The notes under the pieces are model-generated. The model was not told the origin of the DNA. It did no database searches and saw nothing but the letters and a program-made list of their open reading frames with translations. From NCBI RefSeq assembly GCF_003369835.1, contig NZ_QPMJ01000003.1, positions 310,001-374,000 of the forward strand: 64,000 nt of DNA, written 5' to 3'. A program made the position numbers and the translations under genes. Origin of the DNA: Halorussus rarus. GTDB taxonomy: Archaea > Halobacteriota > Halobacteria > Halobacteriales > Haladaptataceae. How positions within the stretch are numbered: position 1 is the stretch's first letter; every line of letters starts with the position of its first letter. Positions 44,648-46,540 of the stretch are shown piece by piece.

Positions 44648-45667
44648 CTATCCGTCGAGAATCGGGTGCGACTGGCGGAGCTCATCGATGAGCTCCCGGA
44701 CGTCCTCGTCGGCCTCCTCGTCGGGCGTCAGCGGCCGCTTGCCGTCGAACGTCTCGTGGACCTCGGCCACGCTCTCGGCCAGCGTGTCGAGGCCGTAGCC
44801 GCCTTCGAGGACGAACCCGAGCGCCGCGTCGGTCTCGTCGGCGACGTCGCGGACCCGGTCGGCCAGCATGCCGTACCCCTCGGTCGAGACCCGCATCCGG
44901 GAGATGGGGTCGTGGCGGTGGGCGTCGAAGCCCGCGCTCACCAGCACCAGGTCGGGGTCGAACGCGCGGAACGCCGGCGCGACCAGGTCGTCGACGGCGT
45001 CGCGGTACTCGGGGTCGCCCGCGCCCGCGGGCAGCGGGAGGTTGAGGGTCGCGCCCTCGCCCTCCCCTTCGCCGGTCTCGTCGCTCTCGCCCGTCCCGGG
45101 GTAGAGGCCGTCTTCGTGGAACGAGGCGTAGAAGACGTCGCCGGCGTCGAAGAAGATGTCCTGGGTGCCGTTGCCGTGGTGGACGTCCCAGTCGAAGATG
45201 GCGACCCGGTCGGCGTCGACGTCGTCGGCCTCGACGACGCGGCGGGCCGCGACCGCGGCGTTGTTGAAGAAGCAGAAGCCCATCGCGTCGTCCTCGACCG
45301 CGTGGTGGCCCGGCGGTCGCCCGATGGCGAACGGCGTGTCGCGGCCGTCGTCGCCGTCGAGCGCGGCGCGGGCCGCCCACCGGGCCAGTCCGGCCGACCG
45401 GAGCGCGGCCTCCCACGTGGCTCGGACCGCCACGGTGTCGGGGTCCCAGTTGCCGCCGCCCGACTCGCAGAACTCCCGGAACTCCGCGACGTAGTCGGGG
45501 TCGTGGACCGCCTCCACGCTGGCCCGGTCGGCGGGCTCGGCGCCCACGTACTCGACGCCGTGCTTGCGCGCCAGCCCCTCCCTGATGGCCCGGAGCCGGT
45601 CGGGGTTCTCGGGGTGGCGCTCGCCCGTGTCGTGTGAGAGACAGTCCTCGCTGTAGCCGAAGTTCAT
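44648..45667 (-). CDS. Histone deacetylase family protein (AcuC/HDAC-like)
   Basis: A 339-aa arginase-fold deacetylase. Motifs: SHDTGERHPENPDRL near the N-terminus, RPPGHHAV, DWDVHHGNGTQ (zinc ligands Asp and His), SAGFDAHRHDP with the further Asp ligand, and EGGYGLD at the end. The family removes acetyl groups from lysines or polyamines. A GGTTAAATTCC-like box in its upstream region indicates its own promoter. It lies downstream of the histone gene on the same strand, separated by 280 bp. Confidence 0.92.
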   Translation of the reverse strand: MNFGYSEDCLSHDTGERHPENPDRLRAIREGLARKHGVEYVGAEPADRASVEAVHDPDYVAEFREFCESGGGNWDPDTVAVRATWEAALRSAGLARWAARAALDGDDGRDTPFAIGRPPGHHAVEDDAMGFCFFNNAAVAARRVVEADDVDADRVAIFDWDVHHGNGTQDIFFDAGDVFYASFHEDGLYPGTGESDETGEGEGEGATLNLPLPAGAGDPEYRDAVDDLVAPAFRAFDPDLVLVSAGFDAHRHDPISRMRVSTEGYGMLADRVRDVADETDAALGFVLEGGYGLDTLAESVAEVHETFDGKRPLTPDEEADEDVRELIDELRQSHPILDG

Positions 45668-45838
45668 AGTTAGGCGTCGGCCGTCCCCGACCACTCGGTA
45701 GTTGGTAGCACGTGTTCCATTCAAACGCAGCGGAATTTAACCGCTTCGCTCCGCCCGACCGTTCCGCCCGCGTCCGGACCGGACGCGTCCCGTCGGCGAC
45801 GGGGCGGCGCCCTCGCGCGGACGGCCCGACCGACCTCA

Positions 45839-45947
45839 TAGGGTCTGTCGTGATTCGTTACCGCCACGGCGATGCATATCGGCAGTGTCTGGCCGCGAAC
45901 CGCCCGCAACTCGCAGTCGCTGCCGAAAATAGTCACGACAGTCCCTA
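45839..45947. mobile_element. Possible MITE with 17-bp terminal inverted repeats
   Basis: The left end TAGGGTCTGTCGTGATT (45839-45855) and right end AGTCACGACAGTCCCTA (45931-45947) are inverted repeats matching at 15 of 17 positions. Both ends are flanked by TCA (45836-45838 and 45948-45950), consistent with a 3-bp target duplication, and the right TCA is the complement of the histone TGA stop. The 109-bp interior has no ORF. The likely parent is an IS5-like transposon, but I cannot name it. Confidence 0.6.
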
Positions 45948-46379
45948 TCACCCGAACAGCTCGAAGTACGTCTCGATGTCCTCGGCCTTGACCGTCCGGC
46001 GGTCGGCGTGGCGCGCGAGGACGGCGGCCGCCTTCGCGACGTTGTCGGCGTAGTCCTCGAGGATGTCCGCCAGCGCGATGCGGGCGTCCATCGCCACCCG
46101 GTAGCTGTCGTCGATGTCGAGCCGCGCGATGCGGTCGACCGGCGCGACCGGGAGCTCGAGGCTGTCCTTGTCGACCACCTGCTCGACGCCGAAGTCCTGG
46201 CTCATCAGCGTCTTCCGGCCGTCCCGGGTGGCGCGCTCGGCGGCGTCGACCGCGAGTTCGGCCCCGTGGCGCTGGATGCGCCGGGCCAGCTCCTCGGCGG
46301 CGTCCGCGCTGACCCGGAGGTCTCCCGCGTTCCGTCTGATGATCGTGTCGACCGGAGCGAACGGCAGCTCGACGCTCAT
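45948..46379 (-). CDS. Archaeal histone, two-fold fusion (haloarchaeal type)
   Basis: A 143-aa protein with two histone folds in one chain: residues about 1-68 (ELPFAPVDTIIRRN onward) and 72-143 (ELPVAPVDRIARLD onward), each with the PF/PV-APV-I-R start and the helix-loop-helix pattern. Such head-to-tail doublets are typical of haloarchaea and fold like an H3/H4-like dimer. It binds DNA and may act more as a regulator than a packer in halophiles. The ATG at 46379 starts at the fold. A MITE-like element touches its stop codon. Confidence 0.95.
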   Translation of the reverse strand: MSVELPFAPVDTIIRRNAGDLRVSADAAEELARRIQRHGAELAVDAAERATRDGRKTLMSQDFGVEQVVDKDSLELPVAPVDRIARLDIDDSYRVAMDARIALADILEDYADNVAKAAAVLARHADRRTVKAEDIETYFELFG

Positions 46380-46540
46380 ACCCAATTCCGGGAATCTCGC
46401 CTCCTTAGTTCTTTCCAAAGCTCGTTTCGGGCGGCCTGCGTCCGTTTCGGCGGGGTCGAGCGCGAGCGAGGTTCCGGCGGCACCGTTCCGTCCTCTGCTC
46501 GCCATCAGTCTGAAGAACCTCGCCGTGGTACGATGGTGGC

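Follow-up and report, generated by a model that had tools for sequence, protein, structure and literature searches.

We identified the 109-bp sequence lying behind an archaeal histone gene as very probably a non-autonomous transposon, belonging to a pan-haloarchaeal family of ~108-bp elements that insert at TGA and are moved in trans. The first-pass annotation had tied this sequence to the histone stop codon; the tie stood for the histone copy and is not peculiar to it, such placement being general among the copies examined in the genus Halorussus. The features of a MITE that were found are a length of 109 bp, no transposase gene, terminal inverted repeats (97.9% of end-pair cells are paired over 16 family members), dispersed copies, and a TGA duplication with an empty site for the copy in genome G015. 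We use the term MITE for the anatomy, and the label "small mobile repeat" fits equally well.

The element at the histone locus

The inverted ends, the TCA on both sides, and the identity of the right-hand TCA with the TGA stop of a minus-strand histone gene had all been noted before and were confirmed at the positions in Table 1: TAGGGTCTGTCGTGATT and the reverse-complemented TAGGGACTGTCGTGACT are identical at 15 of 17 positions, the ORF terminates in the right-hand TCA, and Pfam identified its product as an archaeal histone. Read on the histone strand, the element has its conserved ACTATTTTC end first, and no ORF is listed within the 109 bp alone. Taken by itself, this anatomy is weak evidence, because the window (the whole stretch of DNA analyzed, 64 kb) has 3 matches to inverted ends of 15/17 identity, 80-150 bp apart, with identical 3-mer flanks, namely the histone element and 2 GC-rich ones; the proof therefore has to come from other copies.

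Table 1. Features of the histone locus, in positions of the window
Feature	Position	Strand	Remarks
Mobile element, 109 bp, transposase-less	45839..45947	-	MITE/small mobile repeat; matched by both family models
Left terminal inverted repeat TAGGGTCTGTCGTGATT	45839..45855	+	
Right terminal inverted repeat TAGGGACTGTCGTGACT (reverse-complemented)	45931..45947	-	
Gene-side copy of the target duplication (histone TGA stop)	45948..45950	-	Histones of 10/10 relatives also end in TGA, without the element
Far TGA copy, without coding constraint	45836..45838	-	
Histone gene, 143 aa, PF00808	45948..46379	-	Pfam 9e-27
Histone deacetylase-family gene, PF00850, downstream of the histone	44648..45667	-	Pfam 1.7e-85

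The histone ORF probably starts at 46379, as against the listed 45948-46505, and the deacetylase probably at about 45667, as against 45724. The 2 genes adjoin on one strand, both in the window (44648-46379) and in 3 relatives (L252, L266, and L268). In at least these 3 relatives, the stop of the histone gene and the start of the deacetylase gene overlap (ATGA), which suggests translational coupling of the 2 genes; the gap is ~160-220 bp in other relatives and 280 bp, including the element, in the window. Upstream of the deacetylase, the window has a GC-flanked TTAAA motif in common with the genomes G004 and G015, which places the element between the genes and upstream of a putative deacetylase promoter, as had been proposed. 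Comparison of the histone site in related genomes, also suggested earlier, found the element absent in all 10 Halorussus relatives that were read; their flanks are too diverged past the stop for an empty-site comparison, and at the histone copy the duplication alone is visible. The reading frame terminates at the same stop with the element in place, in agreement with the earlier view that the protein is unchanged by the insertion. We thus describe the histone-locus element as an insertion in the 3' UTR, between the histone and deacetylase genes, that is nearly silent but may affect mRNA 3' ends.

Copies in the genus Halorussus

A 115-bp query covering the histone copy found no further full-length match in the genome it came from; the ends of the element recur there, and the same ends lie at another gene in a relative. 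A gapped end pattern run over 391 genomes of the class matched in 2 only, both of one genus, and a contig scan with the end pattern matched in Halorussus amylolyticus, H. aquaticus, and Halobacteriales archaeon YIM A00010. With a sequence-only family model made from 14 copies and run on 28 genomes of the family, we identified clear copies in 5 Halorussus genomes, including 7 in the histone element's own genome (G000) and others in G011, G004, G015, and G006. Weak matches to the model (E above ~0.005) were dropped, including 1 in G001 (C5:237041) at 0.0086.

We examined 34 copies from the 5 genomes, representing 32 independent loci and excluding two 48-bp copies as well as a partnerless match in G003. 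By their ends, they fall into 3 subfamilies, TAGGGTCGGTYGTAA, TAGTGATTGCTGTGA, and (T/G)AGGGTCGTGCGTAA. One end was in direct contact with a TGA in 33 of the 34 copies, and the stop of a coding ORF lay at the element in 32 (strictly, at 30 of the 32 independent loci), where a coding ORF is one with a codon-model score of at least 9 and 1 copy (L111) is included through the element's TAG. Scores at these stops were at least 27 bits in 30 cases and 9.4 and 14.4 in 2 short genes. Pfam assignments of the carriers include histone, FtsZ, cytochrome oxidase subunit III, RibD-like reductase, GNAT acetyltransferase, DUF1328 protein, TIM-barrel protein, a membrane protein, and a pyridine nucleotide-disulphide oxidoreductase. 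The earlier reading of the histone element as MITE-like is thus borne out by dispersed copies with the same ends and TGA duplications, which a search for the ends, proposed in the same place, did find.

The 2 exceptions each have a history of their own. In L113 (G011, 1531-1748), a second element lies on the far TGA of the first, and the pair forms a tandem of different subfamilies with 1 TGA common to both. At L033, the end of the gene was duplicated in tandem over 22 bp (around 470-511), which moved the stop upstream; the frame of the gene, that of the oxidoreductase named above, is shortened to the first TGA, with the element adjoining. The two 48-bp elements in G011 (L344, 1495-1542; L345, 1474-1521) consist of little beyond 2 ends, and both lie at coding-ORF stops, 1 with TGA on both sides and 1 with the far copy changed.

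Copies in other haloarchaea

YIM A00010 carries ~45 copies with the end TAGGGACTGTTGTGA, of which 43 distinct ones were examined; 3 with a damaged or missing end (L133, L136, and L137) and 1 repeating the flank of L095 (L103) were dropped. A perfect TGA duplication was identified in 36 of the 43, a TAA or TTA duplication in none, and CCG on both sides in 1. The TGA-duplicated copies lie at called stops in 18 cases, in intergenic sequence in 16, and inside called genes in 2. Copies are ~108 bp or 206-218 bp long, once 319 bp, and the longer ones enclose 1 or 2 copies of a second element of 98-107 bp with the ends TACTGTCGGACAG (also given as TACTGTCGGACAGAG) or TACTGTCGGTCAT. This second element (L350-L363 and L139-L149) has TGA duplications in most of its copies, is often nested in the first, and gave 580 end matches in YIM A00010 vs 119 in a reversed control; kin of it are present in Natrinema and Halalkalicoccus plasmids.

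An order-wide model with a 15-bp end stem, run on 214 genomes at E of at most 1e-5, matched in 28 genomes, spanning 17 of 73 genera. The family ends read TA(G/C)(G/T)G..., with the subterminal ACTATTTTC...GGTAACGAAT. TGA was present on both sides in 43 of the 49 copies that were read, which are part of all matches. One genome, the Haloquadratum-like G064, holds 14 copies of 107-108 bp (family model R2). A stop at 20 bits or more was detected in 20 of the 49, a single one among the 14 copies of G064 and 19 among the other 35, leaving 13/14 in G064 and 16/35 in the remaining groups outside Halorussus without a detectable stop; L409 was scored "no" in this count although its gene terminates at the element's TAG. 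A size class of ~80 bp with similar ends occurs in several other genera, and all 8 of its copies that were read (L422-L429) are flanked by TGA on either side.

With the histone copy as query, plasmid BLAST yielded no match above chance; with other copies, it led to elements in Halobacterium BOL4-2, Halovenus, Natrinema, and Halalkalicoccus, and with a G064 copy to a match on a Halorubrum salinarum plasmid. The end pattern matched 53 stretches of viral contigs, with 1 match per stretch. Pattern matches in 1 Chlamydiae MAG and 2 Streptomyces were rejected as chance, being without TGA flanks, and the first 50 kb of the Haloquadratum plasmid PL100 hold one 111-bp inverted-repeat element, also without TGA flanks.

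Excess of insertions at stop codons

A preference for the palindromic target G-N-C-TGA-G-N-C is visible in both TGA flanks, and insertions away from stops have it too. We calculated the expected share of stops as TGA stops/(TGA stops + intergenic TGAs), which is 15.9% in the Halorussus stretches and 6.7% in YIM A00010, with genes called by our own codon model (retrained for YIM A00010) in place of a published gene finder. Weighting by context, with weights learned from the 18 non-stop YIM A00010 sites alone, raised the expectation to 42% in Halorussus (bootstrap 5-95%: 35-49%) and 15% in YIM A00010 (12-19%). The observed Halorussus counts, 30 of 32 without L033 and 31 of 32 with it, have P values of 1e-9 and 5e-11, respectively (binomial, against 42%), and the 18 of 36 in YIM A00010 have a P of 1e-6, 3 to 7 times the expectation. 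The GNC context thus leaves part of the Halorussus stop excess unexplained. Much of the excess appears to follow from the likeness of the target to the end of a haloarchaeal gene, with the remainder due to selection, survivorship, or a further preference.

Survivorship only, with an enzyme that accepts any TGA and a subsequent loss of the copies that damage genes or promoters, is the strongest competing account of the stop excess, and we hold it to be possible yet less probable than its opposite. It agrees with the contrast between the younger-looking YIM A00010 copies, half of them at stops, and the older, more diverged Halorussus copies, nearly all of them so placed, as well as with the position of most G064 copies away from detectable stops. 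However, the YIM A00010 copies are very similar to one another and probably recent, and half of this set is already at stops, at several times the expected share, while nearly all of the others are called intergenic and 2 lie in called genes. Moreover, intergenic TGAs outnumber stop TGAs by ~5 to 1 in Halorussus, and losing all the neutral copies there would require another reason.

A second account has the elements kept for a role in RNA, as a 3'-UTR hairpin or a transcription terminator behind the gene. All 4 strands that were folded gave a strong long hairpin (z -3.85 to -5.36), and 15 end pairs covary across subfamilies, with 39 cells changed on both sides against at most 2 in slid controls. 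Matched ends are, however, a requirement of a transposase too, and RNAalifold found the end repeats alone, with no conserved inner structure. The 34 Halorussus elements lie 17 on the same strand as the gene and 17 on the opposite one, even though only one strand has the T-run, and many copies in YIM A00010 and G064 do not follow a gene. We therefore judge an RNA role to be an unlikely reason for the elements being kept, and the target preference, complemented by selection or survivorship, remains our reading of the stop-codon placement.

Target duplication and the spare stop codon

The duplication was resolved directly at 1 locus, the only one for which a close relative offers a clean empty site. 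The G015 copy behind a TIM-barrel gene is absent in G004, whose flanks are 94% identical; the empty site reads CAGTACGTC-TGA-GCGACC and the filled site CAGTACGTC-TGA-element-TGA-GCGACC. With 1 TGA in the empty site and 2 in the filled one, the target duplication is the stop codon, and the earlier proposal that insertion duplicates the TGA stop is substantiated at this locus. In relatives of other carriers, the element was absent at the stop in 6 of 6 RibD-like genes, 5 of 5 DUF1328 genes, and 4 of 4 oxidase genes, and these unfilled genes end in TGA, except for 1 RibD-like gene with TAG.

The net gain of 1 TGA would also be compatible with a TGA carried at one element end and joined beside an existing TGA without any duplication, a possibility that the published absence of duplications in Haloquadratum would suggest but that we rate as very remote. 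The TGA strand is free of the internal orientation of the element, which is evenly divided in Halorussus, 22:14 in YIM A00010, and of both kinds in G064; the TGA is thus the target and not part of the element, and the YIM A00010 copy with CCG on both sides also speaks against a carried TGA. Hardly credible at all is an IS630/mariner-type insertion at TA (TA|GGG...CCC|TA) with the TGA coincidental, which would fit the TA at the start of all main subfamilies but is refuted for the G015 copy by the single TGA without an adjoining TA in the G004 empty site, and is opposed by the recurrence of TGA flanks in unrelated surroundings, in the YIM A00010 and order-wide sets alike, and by copies that start with GA or CA and still have the TGA outside.

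With TGA duplication as the preferred reading, the fates of the 2 TGA copies can be compared. Of the 34 Halorussus copies, 33 retain the gene-side TGA, whereas the far copy is TGA in 19 and CGA in 8; the gene-side TGA is guarded as a stop codon while the far copy drifts. Because the duplication is 3 bp long and the element starts with TAG, a TAG follows in frame right after the stop. Two loci use it: in L111 (the window genome) and L409 (G176), the TGA has changed to CGA, and the gene terminates at the element's TAG, so that the protein is 1 arginine longer, with CGA-TAG in frame and a strong coding score.

Proposed mechanism and search for a parent element

We propose that a cut-and-paste transposase, presumably of the DDE type, acts in trans on the ~108-bp elements. 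Insertion at a TGA leaves a TGA on both sides, and a frame that ended at this stop codon terminates where it did without the element. The GNC-TGA-GNC target resembles the typical haloarchaeal gene end (a GNC codon and TGA), which would favor stops, and selection would remove insertions in coding sequence while those at stop codons persist. The element's initial in-frame TAG serves as a reserve stop, now in use at the 2 loci above.

A full insertion sequence with the same ends had been suggested as the parent and did not turn up in the parts searched. No autonomous parent with these ends was found, and parents with different internal ends were sought in part of each genome. Single-end scans of 18 Halorussus genomes, G419, and G011 gave pairs at ~48, 108, and 206-318 bp or degraded singles; 4 single ends in G011 (L346-L349) had no partner at 4 mismatches, and C4:49507 was a fifth single end. 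The transposase family screened was PF01609, and 30 loci of its 38 matches in G419 showed no similar TGA-flanked inverted ends. When 0.8 Mb of G419 was scanned de novo for inverted ends with TGA flanks, at most 3.5 kb apart, known small elements and chance-like pairs were all that appeared.

Comparison with known systems

IS5-like (IS1031 group) and PIF/Harbinger-like MITEs are short and have inverted ends, a 3-bp duplication, and a palindromic CTNAG-like core, and the IS1031 group duplicates a TNA target. The present family differs in duplicating TGA alone (apart from the one CCG), with no TAA or TTA, and no IS5- or PIF/Harbinger-type transposase with its ends was found in the parts searched. 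A study of Geobacter uraniireducens reportedly describes a MITE inside an operon that was left undisturbed, a likeness, by title alone, in harmless insertion between genes. We found no accounts of MITEs placed on stop codons in the literature searched. RUP, Correia, and similar bacterial MITEs include a ~107-bp class with TA ends and are non-coding (PMC2229807); they are alike in size and TA ends, and stop-codon placement is not mentioned in the accessible portion of that paper.

The closest likeness is to the SMR-A small mobile repeats of Haloquadratum walsbyi (HqIRS42, HqIRS43, and HqIRS55), described by Dyall-Smith et al. 2011 (PMC3119063). According to the sections of that description available to us, SMR-A are ~110 bp long, occur in many copies, lack a transposase, and have prominent inverted ends unlike those of the genome's transposons; palindromes of PATE/IS605 elements are their preferred targets, and their mobilization is called enigmatic. 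The present family shares with them, as so described, the size, the prominent inverted ends, the lack of a transposase, the many copies, and the strong target preference. Two differences stand out from the same sections: SMR-A are reported without target duplication, whereas all 14 related copies in G064 are flanked by TGA on either side, and the SMR-A targets are near-terminal PATE/IS605 palindromes, whereas the Halorussus copies lie at stop codons. Likened by description, not by the HqIRS sequences, the G064 copies would be SMR-A or close kin, and the missing SMR-A duplication would stem from where the element ends were set. The published SMR-A description, as regards the lack of a target duplication, may need correction.

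At about even chances, in our judgment, this family evolved to use stops as harmless docking sites, with the GNC-TGA-GNC preference, a stop that is rebuilt, and a spare TAG, and SMR-A are the same family at the TGAs of palindromes. Targets that are harmless by construction are rare among mobile elements, and duplication of a stop codon would be the simplest such solution, with the spare TAG as a way for an insertion to join in the termination of a gene. The comparison connects the enigmatic Haloquadratum repeats with a family present in many haloarchaeal genera, casts doubt on the view that these repeats insert without duplicating their target, and leads to a defined problem, the transposase that reads TGA.
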